Below, piece by piece: positions 114 to 24,966 of a stretch of 26,034 nucleotides of DNA. The position numbers and the translations under genes were made by a program. Source of the DNA: a virus; IMG/VR virus record IMGVR_UViG_3300006101_000057, positions 1-26,034 of that record. The stretch is one strand, 5' to 3'. The stretch's first letter is position 1; the number at the start of each line of letters is the position of its first letter. The notes under the pieces are model-generated. The model was not told the origin of the DNA, ran no database searches, and saw only the letters and a list, made by a program, of their open reading frames with translations.

Positions 114-175
114 TGTTTCCTCCTCAGGATTAGATACTGCATTGGTACTGCGAACTGTAATCATAGCCTGTGACA

Positions 176-528: not shown

Positions 529-894
529 TTACCAGTCCTTACAGGTCGAGGTTTGGTCTGGGACGGGGAGCCCGTGCTGGATTTGTTCAGCGACGTAGAC
601 CTGCTGCTCGGGAGTTGCTAGGTACGGAGCCGAGGCAAAGCGCAAGCCGCCGTTGTGTTCCCAGTTCCATTGGGTCATCCCCAGCCCTCCCTCGTACTCG
701 CCTCGTTGCTTCCAGTTGTGGGTCTCGCAGATGTAGACCCTCGACCACGCTGCCATGATTCTAGGTGACACCAGCGACGGGCGATGAGTGACGTGGGCGA
801 CGTTGTGGATAGCGTGGGGCGTGACGTGGTGGTGGTGAACGTTGGTCGGGGAGATGAGCGTCACCACCAGCCCGACGATGAGGAACGGTCTCAT
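529..894 (-). CDS. secreted Rpf-like (resuscitation-promoting factor / transglycosylase-like) protein
   Basis: This 121-residue protein has a short hydrophobic N-terminus (about 3-15) that looks like a signal sequence or anchor. A histidine-rich stretch follows (about 20-37, eight His), then an Rpf-type domain (about 48-118). The domain has W50, the Cys56-Glu57 pair matching the catalytic Glu of Rpf, NW at 60-61, GGLGMTQWNW, and LATPEQQVYVAE at about 92-103. C118 is in place to bond with C56, as in Rpf. Rpf proteins cleave peptidoglycan glycan strands and wake dormant actinobacteria. The ATG overlaps the preceding stop by ATGA and follows GGGGGGTGG. Alternatives are a structural lysozyme or an entry hydrolase, but its location among small early-type genes argues against a virion role. 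Confidence 0.78.
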   Translation of the reverse strand: MRPFLIVGLVVTLISPTNVHHHHVTPHAIHNVAHVTHRPSLVSPRIMAAWSRVYICETHNWKQRGEYEGGLGMTQWNWEHNGGLRFASAPYLATPEQQVYVAEQIQHGLPVPDQTSTCKDW

Positions 895-1172: not shown

Positions 1173-1336
1173 GACATCACCGTCAGGCACACGATGCAGA
1201 CCACCGAGTCGCCGTTCCCGTCGAGCAGGTCAGCGTCGGCTTCACGATTCCCGTGTACGTTTGTCCAGCACGTCGGGCAGAAGATCTGCCAGGTTCCGTT
1301 CGTCCAGCGTCCGAAAGCGTAGGCGGTGCGCTTCAT
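1169..1336 (-). CDS. small zinc-ribbon-like protein
   Basis: This 55-residue protein starts at the ATG at 1336, which overlaps the previous stop as ATGA and follows GGTGA. The longer reading frame upstream is not needed because it would overlap another small gene. The protein has CPTC near residue 20 and CIVC near residue 49, a CxxC-x26-CxxC arrangement suited to one zinc ion, with GRWTNGTWQIF before the first pair. Function is unknown. It sits second in the operon behind promoter-operator copy 1. Confidence 0.6.
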   Translation of the reverse strand: MKRTAYAFGRWTNGTWQIFCPTCWTNVHGNREADADLLDGNGDSVVCIVCLTVMS

Positions 1337-1458
1337 TGTGTCACCGACTTCCACCAGGCGGCCTGCTCTTTGCGCTCTTCCTCGGTGCGCATCTCTGGCG
1401 TGATGCAGCCGAACATAATGCAGTGCTTGACCAACTGCTCGCATTTCATACACTTCAT
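1333..1458 (-). CDS. 41-residue Cys-rich peptide, first gene after promoter 1
   Basis: This open frame is too short for usual gene calling. It is supported by a very strong Shine-Dalgarno (TGAGGAGGA, 4 bases before ATG) and by an ATGA overlap with the next gene. The N-terminus is MKCMKCEQLVKHC, with further Cys at 18, then an acidic/basic helix (about 22-33) and WW near 35-36. The closely spaced cysteines suggest metal binding. It is the leading gene of the transcript from the operator-bearing promoter at 1499-1528. No family recognised. Confidence 0.65.
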   Translation of the reverse strand: MKCMKCEQLVKHCIMFGCITPEMRTEEERKEQAAWWKSVTQ

Positions 1459-1498: not shown

Positions 1499-1528
1499 AT
1501 TCTATGTCCATCAGTTGGACAGATGCAA
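1499..1528 (-). promoter_or_regulatory. promoter 1 with 17-base operator-like palindrome
   Basis: On the minus strand, TTGCAT (1523-1528) and TAGAAT (1499-1504) are separated by 18 bases. The spacer is filled by TGTCCAACTGATGGACA (1505-1521), a perfect 6-base inverted repeat around 5 bases. A protein bound there would block RNA polymerase. It drives the operon starting at 1458. Confidence 0.7.
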
Positions 1529-1533
1529 GTATT

Positions 1534-1554
1534 TTCTCAAAGATTTTTTGAGAA
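1534..1554 (-). terminator. AT-rich hairpin between gene end and promoter 1
   Basis: TTCTCAA and TTGAGAA pair around a 7-base loop. It lies between the stop at 1565 and the -35 box at 1528, where the two other promoter cassettes have a strong terminator. There is no U-run on the minus strand, so it may be a weak terminator or only an A/T-rich element upstream of the promoter. Confidence 0.3.
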
Positions 1555-1564
1555 CCTGAAACCC

Positions 1565-2017
1565 CTACTGTTTGCTGGCTTTTCGGCGAGCGTCGGCGTA
1601 GCAGGCTTGGCACATTCCCGAGCGAATCCTGTCGCTGGGCGTGTTCTCCACGATGCGTCCGCACACCTTGCACTCGGTGATGACGGCCTGCTTGGCTCGT
1701 TCCTTGCCCGTCTGCACGAAGCGAGCGAGGTCGTCCAACTTCATCGAGAGGCGAGCCATCTCGTCGAGCAGTCGGCTGATGTCTCGAACTGCGTCGAAGA
1801 TGGGGTCAGAAACTCGGGCTTCGTTCATGCGGATCACTGCGGCGAGGGTCGGGTCAGAGTAGGAGCCCTTTCCTCGTGGGCCACGCTCTCCCGAAGCGTC
1901 ACGGACGGCTCGGGTTCCAGCCCGTCGGCAGAGGTCGAGCATCACGCCATCGGTGAGACGTGCCAGGTTCTTCTCGACCAACTTGCGGTCACGGATCATG
2001 CGGTCTGAGTTTCTCAT
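1565..2017 (-). CDS. phage protein with C-terminal zinc ribbon
   Basis: This 150-residue protein starts at the ATG at 2017, coupled to the preceding 23-residue gene by TAATG and preceded by GAGGGAC. The first half is basic and includes RDASGERGPRGKGSYSD (about 40-55). A helical amphipathic stretch follows (about 66-105), then a zinc ribbon of the CKVC-x16-CQAC type (C116, C119, C136, C139), and the protein ends in basic residues. The design suggests a nucleic-acid binder with an oligomerising helix. No family recognised. An upstream in-frame start would overlap the small membrane gene and lacks support. Confidence 0.65.
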   Translation of the reverse strand: MRNSDRMIRDRKLVEKNLARLTDGVMLDLCRRAGTRAVRDASGERGPRGKGSYSDPTLAAVIRMNEARVSDPIFDAVRDISRLLDEMARLSMKLDDLARFVQTGKERAKQAVITECKVCGRIVENTPSDRIRSGMCQACYADARRKASKQ

Positions 2018-2088
2018 TAGTCCCTCGACCCGAAGAGTCTCGCCAGTGATACGAACAGCACGATTGTCCACAGGATTGCTGAAAGCAT
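2017..2088 (-). CDS. 23-residue single-pass membrane peptide
   Basis: This tiny frame has TAATG coupling at both ends: its ATG uses the A of the VRR-NUC stop, and its own TAA overlaps the next ATG. GGAAGGGG lies upstream at good spacing. The product begins MLSAILWTIVLFVSLARLF and ends GSRD, that is, one hydrophobic segment of about 15-17 residues and a charged tail. It could insert in the membrane. It could also serve only to couple translation across 72 bases, but the strongly hydrophobic composition speaks for a real peptide. Confidence 0.5.
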   Translation of the reverse strand: MLSAILWTIVLFVSLARLFGSRD

Positions 2089-2420
2089 TAGTACCCCTTC
2101 CCCACGATTCTAACAATGTCATCCCAGTCGGAGGGCTTCCAGAGATAGACCTCGGCGCACGGTATAAGTCCGAGTTCGCCCATCACCTCGTCTTGGGCTG
2201 GTGAGGTGCGCCCTTTCTCACGCTTGAGTTCGGCGAAGATGAGCCGAGTGCCACGCCAAGCGGTGATGTCGGGATAGCCAGCGAGGCTCACTCGGCGGCT
2301 GTCAGGGACGGAGTAGACCGACCAGCCCTGCAGACGCATCAGGTGGCAGACCTGCTCTTGGAACTCGGCTTCGAGCATGGTGGACTTCCACACCTTCTTG
2401 CCGAACAACGGGTCAGCCAC
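2088..2420 (-). CDS. VRR-NUC domain nuclease
   Basis: This 110-residue protein is a stand-alone VRR-NUC domain (PD-(D/E)XK superfamily), the usual phage length. Visible motifs are EAEFQEQVCHLMRLQGW (about 17-33, with the N-terminal acidic residues), GYPDI (48-52, catalytic Asp), FAELKREKG (62-70, catalytic Glu and Lys) and a downstream Gln at 76, ending VYLWKPSDWDDI. The family includes structure-specific nucleases such as the FAN1 core, and phage versions are thought to process branched DNA. It starts at GTG (2420) after GGAGACG, overlapping the preceding gene by 8 bases. ATG at codon 15 is less likely because it would remove the first helix. Confidence 0.88.
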   Translation of the reverse strand: MADPLFGKKVWKSTMLEAEFQEQVCHLMRLQGWSVYSVPDSRRVSLAGYPDITAWRGTRLIFAELKREKGRTSPAQDEVMGELGLIPCAEVYLWKPSDWDDIVRIVGKGY

Positions 2421-2577
2421 GTCGTCTCCAAACTTCTTCGATGAGCATGGTCATGACCTGGTCGGCGTCGAGGCGTTTGAGGTGCTTCTTTTTTTTGCGA
2501 GGGATGCGGTGTTCTGAACTAAACCAGAACTTGAACTCGCCCTCTTGGCCTAGTAGAACTCGGCGTTTCTTAGCCAT
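2413..2577 (-). CDS. 54-residue basic protein
   Basis: This short frame overlaps both neighbours by 8 bases (ATGGCTAA at its start, GTGGCTGA at its end), a spacing also seen elsewhere in this genome. It begins MAKKRRVLLGQEGEFKFWF, has a basic patch RKKKKHLKR (about 27-35) and an acidic helix before WRRRG at the C-terminus. The Lys run is encoded by eight consecutive A, unusual in this GC-rich sequence. Small size and charge suggest nucleic-acid binding. No family recognised. Confidence 0.55.
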   Translation of the reverse strand: MAKKRRVLLGQEGEFKFWFSSEHRIPRKKKKHLKRLDADQVMTMLIEEVWRRRG

Positions 2578-2914
2578 GTCGGTACACCTCTCTTGCTCGG
2601 TCTGCTGCGATTAGGTCGGCGCTGGTGGCCCACGAGTGGACGATGAACCCATGCTCCTGAGCGAAGGCTGGGTTCTCGGTGATGAATGAGTGGCAACGTC
2701 GGCAGAGTGCCAGCACGTTGAACTCGTCGAGGATAGACCCACCCCGAGCCCGAGTCATGATCTCGTGAACGTCCGTCGCCCAGTTGGAGCATACACCTGG
2801 TATCTGGGCTTCGCAGTTGGAACGCTCTTCGAGGATGCGCTTGACGAAGATGCGGCGAGCGACGTTGAGTTTCTGCCGCTTCTTGCTCACGGGGTTCAGA
2901 GGGCTGCGCTTCAC
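2570..2914 (-). CDS. HNH endonuclease
   Basis: This 114-residue protein has the zinc pair Cys34/Cys42 and Cys71/Cys74 around the HNH core. DVHEIMTRARGG (about 48-59) carries the metal-binding His50, N66 lies in the middle strand, and CRRCHSFIT (71-79) carries the final His75. A basic N-terminus precedes it. HNH proteins nick or cut DNA; in phages they serve packaging, homing or recombination. Free-standing cargo between other small nucleases is more likely here than the packaging type, which normally sits beside terminase. GTG start overlapping the previous TGA as GTGA. Confidence 0.85.
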   Translation of the reverse strand: MKRSPLNPVSKKRQKLNVARRIFVKRILEERSNCEAQIPGVCSNWATDVHEIMTRARGGSILDEFNVLALCRRCHSFITENPAFAQEHGFIVHSWATSADLIAADRAREVYRHG

Positions 2915-3303
2915 TCGTCGTCCTCATGGTCGAACGGTTTGAAGTTCAACTCGAACGTCTCGCCAGGGAACCAGTTGCCATCGGGCCACTTGGAATTGCG
3001 CTCGAAGTATTCCAGCGTCCAGGCGAGGCACAGGTGGCAGAACATCGGGTGCGATCCCCAGTACGCCTGCGTCCGCTCCATGACCCACTGAGTACATCCG
3101 TCGCATCTACCAGGTAGCCAGTGTTCGGCCTGCGAGTAGTTTCGTGCCACCCACTCGATGACCTTCTCGTCGTTCGTGCCGAGGATGGCGAGTTTCCCCA
3201 TTGCTGGGTTTGGGTTGATACTGAGGTCGTGCTTCCACAGGTAGCAGAGCAGAGCAAGGAAGTCGTCTGGTGTCTGTGGGTTGTCCTCTTGAGCGAGTTT
3301 CAC
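2911..3303 (-). CDS. zinc-ribbon phage protein of unknown function
   Basis: This 130-residue protein starts at GTG (3303). A longer frame from TTG at 3336 is open but less convincing. It has a helical N-terminal part (about 11-27, 45-57), then CDGC (67-70) and CHLC (89-92) forming a CxxC-x18-CxxC zinc knuckle, and an aromatic, acidic tail. The start has no good Shine-Dalgarno. Instead TAGAGT lies 7 bases before GTG, a spacing that would suit a leaderless transcript, common in actinobacteria. The first gene after the 380-base non-coding gap, it leads into HNH and VRR-NUC. Function unknown. Confidence 0.6.
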   Translation of the reverse strand: MKLAQEDNPQTPDDFLALLCYLWKHDLSINPNPAMGKLAILGTNDEKVIEWVARNYSQAEHWLPGRCDGCTQWVMERTQAYWGSHPMFCHLCLAWTLEYFERNSKWPDGNWFPGETFELNFKPFDHEDDE

Positions 3304-3410
3304 AGCCCTAACTCTACAGCACAGCGTCGCTCTCAAGCCTTGAGGCGCTCGCCTGCTGGGAACTGAGGGCTCGTCACCGAGGCGAGAGCAACGTCCGCAG
3401 ACGCATGACG

Positions 3411-3443
3411 GGAACTACACGCTTCGCTGCGCTCCGTAGTTCC
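3411..3443. promoter_or_regulatory. 8-base-stem hairpin
   Basis: GGAACTAC and GTAGTTCC pair perfectly around a GC-rich 17-base loop that itself contains GCTTCGCTGCGCT. No U-run follows on either strand, so it is a structural element or RNA-processing site rather than a classical terminator. Confidence 0.5.
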
Positions 3444-3601
3444 GACCTCGCCCCACTTCACCACTTGATTTTCATCAAGGACATCCACCCGTCATGGCTC
3501 AAGGCAGGTGCTGATTATCGCACGGTTCACCCAGACGTTCTTGGGCGTGAGCCGACCTCACCGAGATCTAACCCCTGTCAATCCTCGGCCCCACCAGTCC
3601 G

Positions 3602-3631
3602 ATTATCCACCTCTGAATGGCTGCTAGTCAG
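3602..3631 (-). promoter_or_regulatory. candidate promoter for the nuclease operon
   Basis: On the minus strand CTGACT (3626-3631) and GATAAT (3602-3607) are 18 bases apart, the same spacing as the three better promoters here. The match to the -35 consensus is only moderate. It lies in the non-coding gap downstream of the WhiB genes and could make a roughly 300-base structured leader. Confidence 0.35.
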
Positions 3632-3684
3632 CCTTACTGCCGTTTGCCCTAGTGAGGGGGCTGGCGTTCGTTTGTGTCAGTCTG

Positions 3685-4224
3685 TTATAGCAGACCCCTG
3701 CGCTTCATGTCTCTCTTGTCCTTGCCGTGCTGTGAGTGTGCCAGGAGGCACTCCTTACAGGTCACGGCGTAGCCAGCGTTGTTGCCGCCCTTTGCCTTGT
3801 TGCGCAGGTACAGTACCTGGTAGCCACGCTCAGTTCCGCAGGGATGCCAGTCGGTCTCCTCTTTGGGGTTTAGGAACGCTTCGTGCGCCTTGTTGCACTC
3901 ACGGCATTGAAAGCCCATCGAGGCGGCGTAGTGGAAGCCCTGCTCGGTTCCGCAGAACTTGTGCTTCAGCAAGTCCATCGAGCGGTAGAGGTGAATCCCT
4001 CGAACCTTGCGGATGGTCGCTAGTTCGGTGGCGTTTGCGCCGCCCCAGACCCCGTGTGTTTCGTTCTCGACCCCGAGTTCGAGGCACTCCGCCCGATACG
4101 GACACTCCGTGCAGATGTCCTTCGCCATCTGTTCGAGCGTCATGCGCTGGTCTCTGGGCGTGTTGTCTGGTGGGTAGAACAGGGCCGTCTTGCCTAAGCA
4201 GGGTGGGTTCTTGAAGTTGCTCAT
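3685..4224 (-). CDS. WhiB-like regulator with two C-terminal CGT/CxxC/AH modules
   Basis: This 179-residue protein has a WhiB domain with the four Fe-S cysteines C9, C38, C41, C47 (CxxC-x5-C) and the GVWGG turn at 58-62. A long extension then carries the same small module twice: C91-GT-GF, C107-x2-C110, H114 and C129-GT-GY, C156-x2-C159, H163. WhiB proteins bind sigma factor and DNA and sense redox state; phage versions (for example in mycobacteriophage TM4) can down-regulate host WhiB genes. The usual length is about 80-130 residues, so this one is long because of the modules, which look like zinc fingers. ATGA overlap with the upstream WhiB gene and AGGAAACG before the start show co-translation. 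Confidence 0.85.
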   Translation of the reverse strand: MSNFKNPPCLGKTALFYPPDNTPRDQRMTLEQMAKDICTECPYRAECLELGVENETHGVWGGANATELATIRKVRGIHLYRSMDLLKHKFCGTEQGFHYAASMGFQCRECNKAHEAFLNPKEETDWHPCGTERGYQVLYLRNKAKGGNNAGYAVTCKECLLAHSQHGKDKRDMKRRGLL

Positions 4225-4580
4225 CGTTTCCTAATCTTGTCTGCTTGGTAGTGGCTGTGAGCGATGCGGCAGGGCTCGCAGTCGGGGACTTTGAAGCCTA
4301 GTTGCCTCAACTTGGCGAGGCGGTGGTAGCCAGCGTTCGTGCCGCATCGAGGATGCTCCTCGACCTTCGGCTTGTCGAGGCTGATGCCACGCTGCTCTCG
4401 AATGAGCCTGCGCTCTTCTGACGTAGTTCCGCCCCAGACCCCGAAGTCCTCACGGAGCAGGGCTTCATCCAGACACTCCTGTCGCTGGGCGCATCCGTTG
4501 CAGATGACCTTCGCATCTTTGACGAACGCTTCGTCGTAGAACAGGATCGTGTCGTAGCCTCGACACGCTGGGGTCGGCAT
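4221..4580 (-). CDS. WhiB-like regulator with one C-terminal CGT/CxxC/AH module
   Basis: This 119-residue protein has a WhiB domain with C6, C27, C30, C36 and GVWGG at 47-51. After a basic stretch it carries one copy of the module found twice in the next gene: C79-GTNAGY, then C101-x2-C104 and AH108. The two proteins are therefore paralogues in tandem. The ATG shares one base with the upstream stop (TGATG). The Fe-S cluster of WhiB proteins is expected to respond to oxygen or nitric oxide, and the partner is the main sigma factor. Which promoters it controls cannot be read from sequence. Confidence 0.85.
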   Translation of the reverse strand: MPTPACRGYDTILFYDEAFVKDAKVICNGCAQRQECLDEALLREDFGVWGGTTSEERRLIREQRGISLDKPKVEEHPRCGTNAGYHRLAKLRQLGFKVPDCEPCRIAHSHYQADKIRKR

Positions 4581-4771
4581 CAGTAGTTCCGCCAGGAGAG
4601 GACTGCGGCGGTGGTGACGGCTGAGACCGCCGTAGCACCTGCAGCGACGAGGAACCGAGTGTCTGGTGTCCAGTTGGTCAGCAGGGTGGCGAAGGCACTA
4701 ACGATGCCTGTCATCACTGCTACGAACTGCACCTTCTGACGGCCTTCTTGAACGGTAATCTTGCGCTTCAT
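4580..4771 (-). CDS. small two-TM membrane protein
   Basis: This 63-residue protein has a basic N-terminus (MKRKITVQEGRQK), hydrophobic segments at about 14-31 and 39-58 with a short polar loop NWTPDT, and ends SWRNY. It has the size and shape of a class II holin, but it leads an operon with WhiB genes, far from any lysin, so holin function is not supported. A role at the membrane such as exclusion or host modification is possible. The start follows GAGGAGGAAAC directly behind promoter 3. Confidence 0.65.
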   Translation of the reverse strand: MKRKITVQEGRQKVQFVAVMTGIVSAFATLLTNWTPDTRFLVAAGATAVSAVTTAAVLSWRNY

Positions 4772-4774
4772 GTT

Positions 4775-4803
4775 TCCTCCTCAGGAACTCGGCATTGTTG
4801 CCA
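4775..4803 (-). repeat. shared leader, third copy
   Basis: The leader between promoter 3 and its first gene repeats the hairpin and extended Shine-Dalgarno of the two operator-bearing copies. CCTGAGGAGGA and the preceding GCCGAGTT match exactly; the hairpin loop region differs. Confidence 0.6.
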
Positions 4804-4809
4804 CCCACG

Positions 4810-4839
4810 AAGTTAGTCGCAGGAAGTCGCCCGTGTCAA
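4810..4839 (-). promoter_or_regulatory. promoter 3 (WhiB operon), no operator palindrome
   Basis: Minus-strand TTGACA (4834-4839, perfect -35) and TAACTT (4810-4815) are 18 bases apart. The spacer lacks the palindrome found in promoters 1 and 2, so this operon may escape the shared repressor. It lies just downstream of a terminator hairpin. Confidence 0.6.
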
Positions 4840-4862
4840 GATTTTTCTCCAGAAAGCCAGAA

Positions 4863-4884
4863 ACCGCTCCCCGAAGGGAGCGGT
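4863..4884 (-). terminator. strong terminator-type hairpin after the SSB operon
   Basis: ACCGCTCCC and GGGAGCGGT form a perfect 9-base stem closed by the stable tetraloop TTCG on the minus strand, followed by TTTCT. It lies 25 bases after the stop at 4909 and before promoter 3, separating two transcription units. The U-run is short but usual for GC-rich phages. Confidence 0.75.
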
Positions 4885-4908
4885 CTCTAGTTGCCAGGGG
4901 AGCGGCGA

Positions 4909-5181
4909 TTACGGCAGGACGAGGCCCTGCTTCTTGGCGGCTCGTCGAGTCGCACGGTTCGGAGCGTTCAGTTGCTCGATGTGCTGGATGAGCCCCTGAA
5001 TCTGCAGGTGGGCGTGGAGCAGGGCGTACTGCAGCAGGTTGTGCTGTGCCAGGTCTTTGACCTTGCCCTCCTTCGTGCCCCCGTAGATTTCCGCAGCGTC
5101 CTCGGCGGACAGGGTGATGTCGCCGTAGTTCTCCTTGATGGACTGCAGGATGCTCTCGATTGCTGTTGAGGTGGTCGCCAT
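4909..5181 (-). CDS. small helical protein downstream of SSB, function unknown
   Basis: This 90-residue protein starts at the ATG at 5181, coupled to the SSB stop by TAATG; longer in-frame starts would lie within SSB and are rejected. The N-terminal part is Thr/Ser- and acid-rich (ITLSAEDAAEIYGG, about 22-35), the middle is a helix with HNLLQYALLHAHLQIQGLIQ, and the C-terminus is basic with NRATRRAAKKQG. NRATRRAA-like tails occur in many actinophage proteins. It is the last gene before the terminator. Confidence 0.65.
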   Translation of the reverse strand: MATTSTAIESILQSIKENYGDITLSAEDAAEIYGGTKEGKVKDLAQHNLLQYALLHAHLQIQGLIQHIEQLNAPNRATRRAAKKQGLVLP

Positions 5182-5567
5182 TAGAACGAATACTCCTCTT
5201 CCTGCGGTGCAACGTAGGACTTCGGGCGGCTGTCCTTCACGAAGCGCAGGTCGGCTCCGATGCCCTCGACACGGACTTCGCAGGTCGAACGCTTGTTGCC
5301 GTCCTTGTCGTCCCACGAACGCTGCTCAAGTTGCCCCGTGACGATCACACGGTCTCCCTTGCGCAGAGCGTTGGCGATGTTCTCAGCAATCTGACCGAGA
5401 GCCGAGCAGTCGAAGAACGAGGTCTGCTCCTTGTCGTTGCCGCCCTTGTCCTTCCACTTCTTCGTGACCGCTACAGCGAAGCGAGCCGCCGCAGAGCCTC
5501 CGTCAAGGAACTTCAACTCGGGGTCTCGGGTCAGGTTCCCGATGATGGTGATGGTGGCCTCAGCCAT
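5181..5567 (-). CDS. ssb: single-stranded DNA-binding protein
   Basis: This 128-residue OB-fold SSB has the family start ATITIIGNLTRDPELKF (about 4-20), then RFAVAVTKKWKDKGGN, FFDCSALGQIAENIANALRKGDRVIVTGQL (about 51-80) and SWDDKDGNKRST. The linker is short, and the acidic tip EEEYSF resembles the SSB tail that recruits repair proteins. It coats ssDNA made during replication and by the YqaJ exonuclease. The ATG overlaps the upstream gene by 8 bases (ATGGCTGA). The total length is shorter than bacterial SSB (about 170) because the linker is reduced. Confidence 0.95.
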   Translation of the reverse strand: MAEATITIIGNLTRDPELKFLDGGSAAARFAVAVTKKWKDKGGNDKEQTSFFDCSALGQIAENIANALRKGDRVIVTGQLEQRSWDDKDGNKRSTCEVRVEGIGADLRFVKDSRPKSYVAPQEEEYSF

Positions 5568-6093
5568 TGGCTGCCTCCTCTTTCTTGGTTAGGTCGGTAA
5601 TGATTTTACTGCACTCTTCTTCGGAGAGTTCCCAGAGCCCTGCGAGGGTGCGTCCAGTCTTTGCTTCGAGGAAGAACCTGCGAGAGCCAGCGTCAGGGTG
5701 GACTGACAGCAGGGTCTCACGAACCTGCTTCTGGAGTGGGCTCAGTTCGGGGTTCGGGCTCTTGGCACGAGCGACCTTCGCCATCTCCTCCTGGCTGGGA
5801 CGCTTGCCCTTCGGTGCGTAGCCAGCGTTCGCCAGCGCACGTCCGATGGCTGAGGTCTCGCAGTTCTCCAGCGCCGAGGTCTGGTTCACGCCTCGTTGCG
5901 TGACCTGCTCTTCGGCGTAGCCCGTGGCGTAGGGCTGGGTTTCGCCCTCACGGTAGAGCATGGCACGGACGAGAAACTGTCCGTCGCCGTGGTGGATGAG
6001 ATCCGTGAGGACTCGTCCGTTGGGGTGTTCCTCCCAGAAGCGAGCGAGACGAATCTCGACGGGCTCGTAGTCTGCCAGGTTGAAGTTCGCCAT
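5560..6093 (-). CDS. ssDNA-annealing-type recombination protein (Erf/Sak-like)
   Basis: This 177-residue protein has EPVEIRLARFWEEHPNGRVL (about 10-29), then FLVRAMLYREGE and ATGYAEE, and the hallmark ENCETSAIGRALANAGY (76-92), which is shared by a large phage family grouped with Erf/Rad52-like annealing proteins. Such proteins pair complementary ssDNA. SSB directly downstream and a YqaJ exonuclease further on complete a phage recombination set. The C-terminal third (about 100-177) is charged and Ala/Glu-rich, probably for SSB or self-contacts. I am sure of the family signature, less so of the exact superfamily. Confidence 0.72.
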   Translation of the reverse strand: MANFNLADYEPVEIRLARFWEEHPNGRVLTDLIHHGDGQFLVRAMLYREGETQPYATGYAEEQVTQRGVNQTSALENCETSAIGRALANAGYAPKGKRPSQEEMAKVARAKSPNPELSPLQKQVRETLLSVHPDAGSRRFFLEAKTGRTLAGLWELSEEECSKIITDLTKKEEAANG

Positions 6094-6305
6094 TACTTCG
6101 CCGCCTCAAGGATGGCCTGCATGGAGTCGGCGGTGATGCCGAGACCCTGGCAGATGAGCATGGACAGTTCCTCGACGTTGGCGAGGCTCTCTGGGATGTT
6201 CTGGCGGCGGTGTTGGGCCTCCGCTAGGACAAAGGTGAGCAACGCCACCTGCTTGATGTCGAGTTGGACATTGAGTGCCAGCACGACGGGGACTTCTTTC
6301 TTCAT
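6093..6305 (-). CDS. small helical protein, function unknown
   Basis: This 70-residue protein starts at the ATG at 6305 (MKKEVP), preceded by AGAGGAAGA at ideal spacing; starts further upstream would overlap the HTH gene. It is acidic and helical, with ALNVQLDIKQVALLTFVLAE in the middle and a C-terminal LGITADSMQAILEAAK. Stop-start coupling (TAATG) with the annealing protein downstream links their expression. Confidence 0.6.
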   Translation of the reverse strand: MKKEVPVVLALNVQLDIKQVALLTFVLAEAQHRRQNIPESLANVEELSMLICQGLGITADSMQAILEAAK

Positions 6306-6322
6306 TTCTTCCTCTTTCATTG

Positions 6323-6493
6323 TTAGTTGTGCAGCCAATAGTGAACTGCTGATTTTGAGACTGTGATTCCAGTCTCGTCCGTGAGGCACTTTGCGATCTC
6401 TCGATAACTCATGCCACCCGTCCTTGCTGAAGCGAGCCACGCTGTTAGTGACTGCCCCATGCGTTCCTCAAGAATAAGTTGCAGGTGTGACAT
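6323..6493 (-). CDS. 56-residue helix-turn-helix DNA-binding protein
   Basis: This frame is too short for many callers but well supported. It starts at the ATG at 6493 behind AAAGGTTGG and reads 56 codons to TAA. After LQLILEERMGQSLTAWLASA (about 4-23) comes GGMSYREIAKCL, a turn DETGITVS, and KSAVHYWL. This is the SWREIA..L...TGV.VS..T..RW pattern of small phage HTH proteins. It overlaps the end of the upstream gene by 26 bases in another frame, an overlap longer than usual here. It is a second candidate for binding the repeated operator. Confidence 0.7.
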   Translation of the reverse strand: MSHLQLILEERMGQSLTAWLASARTGGMSYREIAKCLTDETGITVSKSAVHYWLHN

Positions 6494-6722
6494 TCCAACC
6501 TTTCAACAGATTCGTCAGTTCTTCGCACTCACGGTTGAAGTGAATCACCGTCGTCGCTTCCTCGACATCTCTCGGCATCTTGACCGCCTGGATGATGCCG
6601 TCGCCGACTGAGAGCGAGACGTAGGTGTTCACGTTCACTCCTTCACGCTTCCAGACTTGACCGTCAGGGCCGTCATCTTCGAGTGTGTAGCCGAGTGTCC
6701 AGAGATTCTCTCGTATGCTCAT
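6468..6722 (-). CDS. small phage protein, function unknown
   Basis: This 84-residue protein starts at an ATG that overlaps the upstream stop as ATGA, after AAAGGAGG. Its sequence alternates short strands and turns (DDGPDGQVWKREGVNVNTYVSL, about 17-38) and ends in a helix with HFNRECEELTNLLKGW. It looks like a compact alpha/beta fold. No family recognised. It shares 26 bases with the HTH gene in another frame. Confidence 0.6.
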   Translation of the reverse strand: MSIRENLWTLGYTLEDDGPDGQVWKREGVNVNTYVSLSVGDGIIQAVKMPRDVEEATTVIHFNRECEELTNLLKGWNVTPATYS

Positions 6723-6946
6723 CGCTTTCCTCCTTTCTTGATAGTAGCGATTAGATCAGCAGGGAAGTGGCGGAACTTGGCGTGTTGCCATGTGCCACCG
6801 AACACCGTGACCCATAGGGTCTCGCCGCCCTCGCTGAGTTGTGCCGAGAAGAACGTGAAGTTCCCTCGAACGTTCTTGACCTTGACGGCATCGCCACGGA
6901 GTAGACCGTTCCACTCCGTGACGACTGCGCCCTTCGTTGATGCCAT
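6719..6946 (-). CDS. small beta-rich phage protein, function unknown
   Basis: This 75-residue protein is predicted as beta-strands: GAVVTEW, GDAVKVKNVRGNFTFFSAQL, ETLWVTVFGG, then FRHFPADLIATIKKGGKR. The strand pattern with an early Gly-Asp and a basic tail resembles small SH3-like barrels that bind nucleic acid or protein, but this is inference. It is coupled by TAATG to the previous gene and by ATGA to the next. Confidence 0.55.
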   Translation of the reverse strand: MASTKGAVVTEWNGLLRGDAVKVKNVRGNFTFFSAQLSEGGETLWVTVFGGTWQHAKFRHFPADLIATIKKGGKR

Positions 6947-7098
6947 TACTCACCTTCCTTGCCTGCTTTGATGAGTTGTTCAAGCGCTCGGTCAATGCGA
7001 GCCGACTCTGCTGGGGTTAGGATTGTTGTCCCTTCGGCCTGATTGCGGATGCCATCCAGAACATTGTGGTAGTTGCGGAGTGCCTGCTCGTAAGTCAT
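6946..7098 (-). CDS. 50-residue helical protein
   Basis: The ATG at 7098 overlaps the upstream stop as ATGA and follows GGTGG; the longer frame upstream would run antisense-like through the neighbour. The product reads MTYEQALRNYHNVLDGI and then helices with PAESARIDRALEQLIKAGK. It resembles a two-helix hairpin. Function unknown. Confidence 0.55.
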   Translation of the reverse strand: MTYEQALRNYHNVLDGIRNQAEGTTILTPAESARIDRALEQLIKAGKEGE

Positions 7099-7346
7099 CG
7101 TGCCGCCACCTTCCACAACGCACGAAAGAACTTGCCGTCCTCCCAACGCTTTGACGCAATCGACTTCGCGTCCTTGAGACTCGCCGCCGTTTCTGTTGGC
7201 GCAGACTCTGCCCACCAGCAGTCACAGTCGAAACCGCTTGCGTCGCAGTCGCACTCAATGATGTCCCAGTAGTCCACAACGTTCTCGGTGTCATCGTTCA
7301 TAACTGGCACGATGTGGTGGCCCTTGTAAAAGTAGCGGTTCGTCAT
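7095..7346 (-). CDS. small acidic Cys-cluster protein, leads operon behind promoter 2
   Basis: This 83-residue protein starts after CTGAGGAGGA, directly downstream of the operator-bearing promoter at 7387-7416. It begins with strands (RYFYKGHHIVPV), followed by DYWDIIECDCDASGFDCDCWW (about 25-45), where C32, C34, C41 and C43 lie close together. The second half is a basic helix. Its expression should follow the operator. Function unknown. Confidence 0.6.
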   Translation of the reverse strand: MTNRYFYKGHHIVPVMNDDTENVVDYWDIIECDCDASGFDCDCWWAESAPTETAASLKDAKSIASKRWEDGKFFRALWKVAAR

Positions 7347-7350
7347 TGTG

Positions 7351-7416
7351 TCCTCCTCAGAACTCGGCGGTGTTGCCGATGTAAAGATTCTATGTCCACC
7401 AGTTGGACAAATGCAA
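7351..7416 (-). repeat. promoter-operator-leader repeat, copy 2
   Basis: Nearly identical to 1462-1528: one base is missing in the leader beside the Shine-Dalgarno, and substitutions occur at a few positions, including one in the palindrome centre (ACTGG for ACTGA). Both arms of the palindrome, both promoter boxes and the leader hairpin are unchanged, which suggests they are under selection. Confidence 0.85.
7387..7416 (-). promoter_or_regulatory. promoter 2 with operator-like palindrome
   Basis: On the minus strand, TTGCAT (7411-7416) and TAGAAT (7387-7392) lie 18 bases apart. The spacer palindrome TGTCCAACTGGTGGACA (7393-7409) keeps both 6-base arms of copy 1. It drives the operon 7346 to 4909 that carries HTH, annealing protein and SSB. 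Confidence 0.72.
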
Positions 7417-7480
7417 GTCTTATTGCAAGAAACTTTGTAAAGCCTTGTGGCGTAAGGGGTTTGGGGGAGTAAATGCGAAG

Positions 7481-10303: not shown

Positions 10304-11058
10304 TGTCCGAATGTTCCTTTCACGGAGCCAGCGTATGCCGACCCCTCGACTGTTGCTTGGTAGGCCGTACCTGTGACACTCCCAGCGTAGGCCGTCCCCT
10401 CGACGCTCGCCTGTAGCGCCACGTTGCGGACGGTTGCCGAGTAGAACGTCCCCTCGACTGTGCCTGGTGAGGGCTGGAAGTGGGTCGCCGTTCCCGATGC
10501 GGTGAACGTGAAAGTCTCGACACCGACGGCAGGGTAGTACCAAGTTGCGTTAGAACTGCCCTGAAATGCCCCTGTAAGGCTCCCAGAGGCTTCGACTTTC
10601 GCCGCACCGCTTCCGCTATAGGCGTATGAGCCAGAGCCCGTGGAGGTGATGCGAGCCGAGGCCGTTCCTGAGAATGTGCCAGCCGCCGAGCCCGTGGCGA
10701 TGTCGGCGATAGCCCACGTCGCCGACCCCGTGAAGGTTCCCGACAGCGAGCCCGTGCTTGCGAGCCTGCCCGTCGCCGACCCCGTGAAGGTTCCCGACAG
10801 CGAGCCCGTGGCAGGTTCGTCGTAAGTGGCGGTTCCTGAGCCCGAGAACGAGCCCGTGGCAGAGCCCGTCGCTGGGTAGACCACCGTTCCCGTCGCTGAG
10901 CCAGCGAACGAGCCCGTGGCAGAGCCCGTCGCTGGGTAGACCACCGTTCCCGTCGCTGAGCCAGCGAACGAGTACGAACCCGAGCCTGTGGCCGACTTCG
11001 TAGGCTCGTCATACGCCTGCCCGAGATAGGGCGCACCTAGATAGTTTGCGCCGAGCAT
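10300..11058 (-). CDS. repeat-rich virion protein, likely fibre or appendage
   Basis: This 252-residue protein opens with MLGANYLGAPYLGQ; YLG repeats of this kind start several phage tail-associated proteins. Most of the rest consists of Gly/Ser/Ala/Thr units ending ATGSATGSF or GSLSGTFTGSAT, and a second unit type, VEGTAYAGSVTGTAY, fills the C-terminus. Low complexity, period 18-20 residues and lack of charge suggest a thin beta-repeat shaft. It is followed by a coupled Ig-like gene and preceded by the main fibre gene. AAGGAGACTAG precedes the start. Confidence 0.6.
   Translation of the reverse strand: MLGANYLGAPYLGQAYDEPTKSATGSGSYSFAGSATGTVVYPATGSATGSFAGSATGTVVYPATGSATGSFSGSGTATYDEPATGSLSGTFTGSATGRLASTGSLSGTFTGSATWAIADIATGSAAGTFSGTASARITSTGSGSYAYSGSGAAKVEASGSLTGAFQGSSNATWYYPAVGVETFTFTASGTATHFQPSPGTVEGTFYSATVRNVALQASVEGTAYAGSVTGTAYQATVEGSAYAGSVKGTFGQ
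10717..10810 (-). repeat. 40-base direct repeat, offset 54
   Basis: The stretch 10717-10756 recurs identically at 10771-10810. It encodes the repeated GSLSGTFTGSATG unit (18-residue period). Such identity at DNA level in a coding repeat indicates recent unequal exchange. Confidence 0.8.
10861..10972 (-). repeat. 60-base tandem repeat
   Basis: The 60 bases from 10861 repeat from 10921 with identity over at least 52 bases, and a further about 15 identical bases precede each copy. They encode 20-residue units with GSATGTVVYPATGSATG. Unit number may vary between isolates. Confidence 0.85.
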
Positions 11059-23304: not shown

Positions 23305-24966
23305 TCAGCCCGTGATACCCGTGATGATTCCCGACCAGGCTGGCGCACGGAAAGCGAGCGAGCCGTAGGTGTAGGAACTGATGTCGTAGGTGAAGCCGAT
23401 CTGAGGCCACTCGATAATCATCGAGTCTACGACGTTGTGGACTTCGACGGTCTGCGACACGCCAGAGTCAGGGAAAGGCAACTGCTTCTGGTGGATGACC
23501 ATCGTGCCTTGTGGGATGAAGCGGTGCGTGACCAAATCGAGCATGGTTCCCGTCGCTTCGTTTGCAACGCCCGTCACCATCGCACCGATGCTCACGCCGT
23601 CGGAACCCGTGGCGTAGTTGAAGCGGTAGGAGGTGCTGGAGACAGCCGTGGACTGCAGGGCCTTCGAGAGCGCACGGCGAACCGAGGCGCTGGTGAAGAT
23701 GACTTCAGGGTCAGCCATCGTGCTGTTGTAGAGGCTCACGAGAGCGTCCTGCACGAAGCCAGCAGGCTCGCTCTGTGACGACACGGTGTTGTTGAACTGA
23801 GCCTGGTAGCCACCAGACTGAGCGATGGTGCTGATGAAGCCGTCGTAGCCTGAGCCCGAGTTAGCGCCAGCAGCGTAGGCGTTGTATGAGCCGTCAGCAG
23901 CAGGAACGCCAGCAGCGTAGGTTGCGAAGGCAAGGCCCGTCACACCCGAGGCGAGCGACACCGTTGAAGCACGGTAGACGGTCGAACCGACGGTGACGTA
24001 GATGTTCACAGCAACAGCGCCGTAAGGAGCAGTTCCCGTCCAAGTGACCTTTGCACCAGTTCCAGCGCAGGTGATGGTTCCAGCCGAAACAGGCAGGGTC
24101 TCACCGTAAGCCGAGGACAACGTGACCTGCACAGTACCCGTGCCAGAGGCAGGGAGACCTGAACCCGTCGAGTCCACAGCACCAGTGGCGGTGCCGAGGC
24201 CCGTGGTGGGCAGAGCGGTCGAAACAGCGTTCATCATGTTGCGCTCTTCGGCGAGGAAGTGCGACCAGATGAGAGCCGTGTGTGACAACTGACGAAGGTC
24301 GGTGTAGCCCTGTCCAGCGAAGGAAGCCTGGAGCGAAACGCTGTCAGACAGACCCTGCTCGACGAACGACTTGACAATCTTGTCGGCTGCGTAGGTGATC
24401 TTGGTAGGACGGTTCAGCGAAACGCCACCGAACGAAGTCGAAGCCGAGGTCGAGGAGAAGAACGACGAGGTTTGACCCACGCCACCAACGCCTGCGTTCG
24501 ACAGACCCGTGATGCGGCGGAACTCCAGAGCCTGGCCCTGAGCCTTGATACGGGCGATGCTGTTGCGAAGGTACAGTTCCTTCGGGATGAGCAACGACAG
24601 AACAGGGTCGAGGTCGTAAGGTACGAGACCCGAGACGCCCGAGATGCTGCTGTTCAGAGGGCTGGTCAGCGTCAAGTCCTTCTGCAAGTCGGCGAGGCCG
24701 TCGAGCGAGGACTGAACGGCGGCCAACTGGTCGCCTGAAACAGCCTTAGTGATTTCGTTGGTCAGTTCAGCGACACGGTTGGCGGTCGAGACTGACTTGT
24801 TGATGCCACGCTGTGGGTCGAAGGAGATTTCTCCACGACGGTGAGCAGCGAGGGTGTTGGACTGGACGGTGCTAAGGGCTGACTTGTAAGCCTCAAAGCG
24901 CTTGACCTGCTCGTCGGCTGGGAGGCCTGAGAACATCTGGTCAAGGGAGGGAGCGGCGAGTGCCAT
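23305..24966 (-). CDS. HK97-type major capsid protein with an inserted domain
   Basis: This 553-residue protein starts after AAAGGAACC. Residues 1-105 are helical and charged, like a delta/scaffold region. The HK97-type core begins with GLVPYDLDPVLSLLIPKELYLRNSI (about 113-137) and continues with KIVKSFVEQGLSDSVSLQA. Residues about 252-360 are Gly/Thr/Val/Ala-rich, with SAYGETLPVSAGTITC and VAVNIYVTVGSTVY, and look like an inserted Ig/Big-like beta domain. The core then resumes with FISTIAQSGGYQAQFNNT and ADPEVIFTSASVRRALSKAL to LAFRAPAW. Usual size without the insert is about 400. It is followed by a strong hairpin. Confidence 0.85.
   Translation of the reverse strand: MALAAPSLDQMFSGLPADEQVKRFEAYKSALSTVQSNTLAAHRRGEISFDPQRGINKSVSTANRVAELTNEITKAVSGDQLAAVQSSLDGLADLQKDLTLTSPLNSSISGVSGLVPYDLDPVLSLLIPKELYLRNSIARIKAQGQALEFRRITGLSNAGVGGVGQTSSFFSSTSASTSFGGVSLNRPTKITYAADKIVKSFVEQGLSDSVSLQASFAGQGYTDLRQLSHTALIWSHFLAEERNMMNAVSTALPTTGLGTATGAVDSTGSGLPASGTGTVQVTLSSAYGETLPVSAGTITCAGTGAKVTWTGTAPYGAVAVNIYVTVGSTVYRASTVSLASGVTGLAFATYAAGVPAADGSYNAYAAGANSGSGYDGFISTIAQSGGYQAQFNNTVSSQSEPAGFVQDALVSLYNSTMADPEVIFTSASVRRALSKALQSTAVSSTSYRFNYATGSDGVSIGAMVTGVANEATGTMLDLVTHRFIPQGTMVIHQKQLPFPDSGVSQTVEVHNVVDSMIIEWPQIGFTYDISSYTYGSLAFRAPAWSGIITGITG

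Follow-up and report, generated by a model that had tools for sequence, protein, structure and literature searches.

Repression from an operator in a promoter spacer and Cro-like feedback are both known principles of gene control. Here we describe a candidate system of this kind in the 26,034-base IMG/VR record IMGVR_UViG_3300006101_000057, which was analyzed whole and is referred to below as the window. Two of its minus-strand promoters carry the palindrome TGTCCA-N5-TGGACA between their -35 and -10 boxes, and the analysis points to a 56-residue helix-turn-helix (HTH) protein of the phage, named hth56, as the candidate binder. The closest described systems are Cro/CI of phage lambda and the small HTH repressors of other phages, with which the locus has in common a small HTH protein that is encoded in an early operon and thought to repress it. 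As in lambda Cro/CI, the dyad operator overlaps the promoter and its half-sites lie about one turn apart. Unlike in lambda, all genes are on one strand, most of the phages have a single dyad per promoter, no sequence similarity was shown, no integrase was found, and no divergent cI-like repressor was noticed (CI-like genes were not searched by family).

A second parallel is provided by the immunity repressors and stoperators of Cluster A mycobacteriophages such as L5 and TipsytheTRex, which are likewise actinophage repressor sites at early promoters. In Cluster A, more than 20 asymmetric 13-mer stoperators are recognized by a monomeric repressor that has two DNA-binding domains (PMC9283540). 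The phages described here instead have two or three symmetric sites, located at promoters only, and with its two symmetric sites the window falls outside the stoperator class. MerR-type operators resemble the present ones in the placement of the dyad between the two promoter boxes. In MerR promoters the spacer is over-long (19-20) and the dyad geometry is fixed, whereas the spacers here are of normal length (16-19, mostly 18) and the dyad drifts by 5 bp, which places the system outside that class as well. Finally, hth56 is weakly related to gp41 of Rhodococcus phage Whack (34% over a portion of the sequence, E 0.03). The gp41 protein adjoins a divergent immunity repressor and an integrase, which is the position of Cro, but differs in its length (~69 residues), in its last helix (VTREALRQW) and in that no GTCC-N7-GGAC was seen in its promoter stretch. 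Searches of family libraries and of isolated-phage records matched neither the regulator-operator pair nor the phage group, and a limited literature search showed nothing; the hth56-operator pair appears to be undescribed, the principle being known. Hardly any work has addressed gene regulation in uncultured actinophages, and sequence comparison alone here yields a specific candidate regulator together with its putative recognition site and target promoters.

Two promoters with a palindrome in the spacer

Promoters of the window were named by order of transcription (P1 at ~9934, P2 at 7416, P3 at 4839, P4 at 1528 and P5 at ~175). A sequence-only reading of this DNA had proposed that two minus-strand promoters, here P2 and P4, share the -35 box TTGCAT, the -10 box TAGAAT and an 18-base spacer, and that a palindrome with arms TGTCCA/TGGACA fills both spacers, with centres that differ in one base; all of this was confirmed. 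P4 (1499-1528, minus strand) has its -35 box at 1523-1528 and its -10 box at 1499-1504, with a candidate operator (site 1) at 1505-1521, while in P2 (7387-7416, minus strand) the boxes lie at 7411-7416 and 7387-7392 and the candidate operator (site 2) at 7393-7409. Read on the minus strand, the two are TTGCAT-C-TGTCCAACTGATGGACA-TAGAAT at site 1 and TTGCAT-T-TGTCCAACTGGTGGACA-TAGAAT at site 2. Both promoters are predictions; the same architecture recurs in relatives, where site 1 is also conserved. The exact motif occurs in the window at these two promoters only (n=2), and not once in 100 dinucleotide shuffles, well above what chance would give. When up to three mismatches are allowed it is not enriched in the window (16 observed against 11.75 expected), and we therefore interpret the exact pair only.

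Each site forms part of a cassette, present in two copies, that consists of an A+T-rich upstream stretch, the -35 box, the operator, the -10 box, a 5' hairpin and the ribosome site CTGAGGAGGA. The upstream stretch, which resembles AAAAAATCTTTG and is conserved, lies immediately 5' of the -35 box (~1530-1552 in the window) and is also seen at many of the operator promoters in relatives; it is possibly an UP element. Since both sites lie inside an 86-nt direct repeat (1472-1557 and 7360-7445, 83%) that includes the hairpin and the ribosome site, one duplication could explain their similarity within the window alone. The palindrome might then be incidental to a duplicated promoter cassette, or it might be an RNA hairpin or terminator, with no protein site at all; site 1 does score as terminator-like, because TAGAATTTTT follows it. 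We regard this explanation as highly improbable. The T run is present at site 1 only, transcription is predicted to start downstream of the palindrome, and terminator matches in the window are at background, and on these grounds the terminator or RNA-hairpin reading was rejected. The doubt raised by the duplication is removed by the relatives, in which the arms persist and the dyad changes in pairs while centre, flanks and leader diverge.

Conservation and geometry in related phages

Relatives were gathered by scans with the Erf-like protein, with motifs, with an alignment of the Erf-like family and with an alignment of the metallophosphoesterase-like protein encoded upstream of P2. A first pattern scan of IMG/VR returned 118 stretches, mostly chance matches, of which only those with the leader and ribosome site were retained; L353, L398 and L073/G005, retrieved from IMG/VR by the motif, turned out to be relatives. 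The motif thus pulls distant relatives from millions of contigs, which makes it useful for phage classification. The site is present in about ten related lineages (G000/G006, G012/G013/G014, G002/G001, G004, G008, G011, G016, G024/G025/G040, G005/G003, G017, G018 and G038), whose gene order is common over most of the genome. There too it lies between promoter boxes and heads the same operons, P2 leading into recombination genes and P4 into a small-gene operon with a winged-helix and an Rpf-type protein. An additional site in G005/G003 stands ahead of an operon that includes GroES-like, HslV/proteasome-like and terminase genes; in G003 (locus L271, 1484-2919) it is a third operator, ahead of the GroES-like and HslV/proteasome-like genes. 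One site of the distant G017 heads an operon that encodes a methyltransferase, a proteasome-like protein and terminase. Sites found through homology (G008, G011, G024 and G038) share the same core. Two operator-like dyads at a single P2 promoter were seen in G038 (L428, 2583-2635) and in the P2 leader of G005 (~6510-6550), the second dyad falling past the start but ahead of the ribosome site. Weak sites with two mismatches in L471, L491 and L498, which are A+T-rich and have no hth56, were taken as chance, and the single site in the 138-kb G037, which also has no hth56, is about what chance would give.

Alignment of 25 sites yields GTCC-N7-GGAC as the consensus. Positions TCC (3-5) and GGAC (13-16) are invariant at 2 bits, the centre carries 0.03-0.5 bit, and the bases flanking the core on its outer and inner sides are strongly biased; several of these sites were picked for motif resemblance, which inflates the conservation. 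Changes in the dyad tend to be paired (three informative pairs: positions 6/12, p 0.003; 7/11, p 0.02; 1/17, p 0.02; permutation over the 25 sites), as in the variants TGTCCTA-CGC-TAGGACA (L507-L511), TGTCCT-AGCGT-AGGACA (G018), CGTCCA-GTAGT-TGGACG (G038) and, at the second site in the G005 leader, TGTCCGA-AAA-TCGGACA. The 25 sites, partly picked by similarity, have the form of a dyad operator, with symmetric half-sites conserved around a free centre and changing in pairs. Such paired arm changes are a mark of a two-fold symmetric protein, and the retention of the arms amid a varying centre and flanks supports the earlier proposal that the operator is selected for protein binding.

In the 21 sites with confidently assigned boxes, the dyad lies between the predicted -35 and -10 boxes, overlapping the promoter. 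Box spacing ranges from 16 to 19 and is 18 in 14 of the 21, while the distance of the dyad centre from the -10 box varies between 8 and 13 bp. A dyad that fills the spacer is the arrangement of MerR promoters, and spacers of 18 are slightly long, as might be expected if the bound protein activated transcription by twisting a poor spacer into register. We consider such a MerR-like activator quite unlikely. Good boxes at a spacing of mostly 17-18 need no realignment, the dyad does not hold a fixed distance from the -10 box, and the best Pfam matches of hth56, all sub-threshold, are homeodomain-like or winged HTH domains. Since the dyad floats while the box spacing holds, steric exclusion of the polymerase suits these sites better than a fixed-geometry activator, and the placement of the palindrome in the promoter favors the suggestion of the sequence-only reading that a bound protein would block RNA polymerase.

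Promoters of two other classes provide a comparison. P3, the promoter of the WhiB operon (4810-4839, minus strand, TTGACA-N18-TAACTT), has no palindrome and serves as an internal negative control. The palindrome was not found in the P3 class as a whole (TTGAC-N18-TANNNT), which in most of the genomes inspected stands ahead of the WhiB operon, nor in the P5 class, which heads a YqaJ-like exonuclease gene and has another conserved element, TGTCACA. The palindrome thus does not simply come with the host promoter consensus. The P5 promoter itself (154-174, minus strand) takes the form ATGTCACA-N9-TANNNT, which is conserved in G002, G004, G008, G011, G016 and G018, most of them with no normal -35 box; the element possibly defines a second, activator-dependent regulon.

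Co-occurrence of hth56 with the palindrome

The gene for hth56 (6323-6493, minus strand) lies inside the P2 operon and encodes the candidate operator-binding autorepressor; its relatives were found by a single-protein scan. The comparison covered 66 locus clusters, selected with the Erf-like protein, the metallophosphoesterase-like protein or hth56. An operator-type promoter was present in seven of the eight clusters with a VSKS-type hth56 and in none of the 58 without (Fisher 1e-8, a value that overstates a strong association and is not a calibrated probability, as the lineages are related and the clusters non-independent). The eighth positive cluster, G005, does have operators, but they fail the -35 filter, and none of eight control palindromes was found across the 66 clusters. 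Among 22 whole records, hth56 is encoded in seven, six of which have operator sites. The seventh, G039, has a diverged hth56 helix (VGRT instead of VSKS) and lacks the site; its P2 promoter (L431, 3189-3199) contains another palindrome, GTCCG-G-CGGAC, in one copy only, possibly a co-evolved operator. Overall relatedness does not explain the link between hth56 and the site, since G026-G028 lack both and yet are closer to the window (metallophosphoesterase 68% to that of the window, against 40% for G011 and 31% for G017).

Other phage proteins follow the site poorly. The WhiB proteins (3685-4580) and the winged-helix protein (891-1190) are both encoded in the window, the latter within the P4 operon itself, and could in principle be the binder. 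However, WhiB is found in 17 of the 22 records, most of them without the site, which does not fit a WhiB regulon, and the winged-helix protein is found in one of the 22 and has no match in the site-bearing G017, G024, G025, G038 and G040. Both were rejected as binders by this distribution, and it is very unlikely that either reads the palindrome; among HTH-type proteins, hth56 alone follows the site. A further alternative is that a host regulator binds the palindrome. Phages use host operators, and by capturing one this phage would make its early genes respond to the state of the host; the identity of the binder is proposed here from co-occurrence with hth56, which leaves some room for this view. 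We nevertheless judge it unlikely, as the site tracks a phage gene, and as CTTG-N3-5-TGTCCA-N5-TGGACATA, when searched for in 84,980 species genomes, had 23 scattered matches, none titled Actinobacteria and about as many as we estimate for chance (the scan covered one promoter form, and the collection may lack the true host).

An AlphaFold model of hth56 (pLDDT 93.9) has four helices, the last two of which (30-41 and 47-55) form an HTH. The VSKS that opens the last helix is invariant in seven aligned relatives, as is the core of the operator. A PDB sequence search gave no meaningful match, Foldseek returned none at E<=0.001, and in a second structure comparison the best matches (Z up to 6.6) were HTH domains of small terminases and transposases. 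The top fold match, a small terminase, is not favored as the identity of hth56, since in G002 a different HTH protein (3629-4063) is encoded immediately ahead of the large terminase.

Taken with the pairing of the arms, these observations make it fairly likely, in our estimation, that the palindrome, with its core GTCC-N7-GGAC, is the operator of a dimeric phage HTH protein, most likely hth56, which would bring about a Cro-like early shut-off of P2 and P4 in a probably lytic phage. The HTH model and the position of the gene inside the operon fit a Cro-like protein, which would repress on binding. P2 would fire early, so that hth56 is produced along with the recombination proteins. A dimer would then settle on the spacer operators, each subunit reading one of two half-sites about one helical turn apart, and, lodged between the -35 and -10 boxes, would keep RNA polymerase out. 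Accumulating hth56 would in this way turn off its own recombination operon and the second operon at P4, with P3 and P5 outside its control. Several points weigh against hth56 in this role, in addition to the relatedness of the lineages. The protein falls below every Pfam cut-off, its best matches being HTH_32/HTH_33; 56 residues may be too few for unaided dimerization; the P2 site of G038 is degenerate, with three mismatches; and hth56 and the operator could travel together as parts of one early module. A lytic life style is likely, because a search for tyrosine and serine integrases in 12 records of the phage group (several near full length, some of ~37 kb, and others fragments) found none.

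A broader proposal, to which we give about even weight for and against, is that an undescribed family of phage HTH repressors of 56-62 residues, paired with GTCC-N7-GGAC, runs early shut-off in uncultured, probably lytic actinophages. It would act through a cassette of spacer operator and 5' mRNA hairpin that heads two or three operons, and its helix would change in step with the operator. If true, a spacer operator at normal spacing and a minimal HTH protein would make a compact repressible promoter.

Operons, leaders and other features of the window

Phage genes of the window lie on the minus strand. The scan of family libraries identified two adjacent WhiB genes in one operon; several relatives likewise have two. 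A whiB gene is held to mark actinophages (PMC10202952), and an actinobacterial host is therefore indicated. The sequence-only reading had linked a nuclease/Rpf-type operon with the recombination operon in one regulon. The Rpf-type and recombination operons are indeed those headed by the two sites and would make up a small phage regulon, whereas the nuclease genes (VRR-NUC-like, 2088-2420; HNH, 2570-2914) are not behind site 1 but in the WhiB operon further upstream. That operon has a promoter of its own, with TTGACA at 4834-4839 and without the palindrome. The P4 operon begins with a Cys-rich protein of ~41 residues (1333-1458, minus strand, MKCMKCEQ...), and contains the winged-helix protein (minus strand, weak Pfam HTH matches) and an Rpf-type transglycosylase (529-894, minus strand, PF06737, E 4.5e-9). 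The first P2 gene (7095-7346, minus strand) is an open reading frame of 83 residues, with leader and ribosome site, to which no function was assigned; besides hth56, the operon contains a putative Erf-like recombination protein (5560-6093, minus strand; phrog_11717, E 1.2e-35, a family of unknown function, with an Erf-like motif recognized by eye) and a single-strand DNA-binding protein (5181-5567, minus strand, PF00436, E 6.2e-30).

The leader hairpin of P2 (7364-7379, minus strand) has the sequence UCGGC-AACACC-GCCGA and lies a few bases past the predicted start; that of P4 (1476-1491, minus strand) is the same. Ribosome sites reading CTGAGGAGGA, common to the leaders of the phage group, precede the first P2 gene (7351-7360, minus strand) and the first P4 gene (1462-1471, minus strand), and five leaders of the window terminate in CTGAGGAGG ahead of the start codon, along transcription. 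Folding of 17 leaders gave a mean z of -2.8, and in relatives the stem is swapped for other paired stems (GGGC/GCCC, UCACC/GGUGA, AUCAGC/GCUGAU, UCGCC/GGCGA and UAAGGC/GCCUUA), so it is the structure that is kept. An Rfam search gave no match. The hairpin, which is common to P2 and P4 and weakly to P3, likely acts in mRNA stability or translation.

Elsewhere in the window, a putative capsid protein (23305-24966, phrog_13692) has as its only isolated-phage matches two THSA-485A records, at 23%, and a putative tail or fibre gene holds imperfect direct repeats (10657-10990) spaced mostly 54-60 nt apart.

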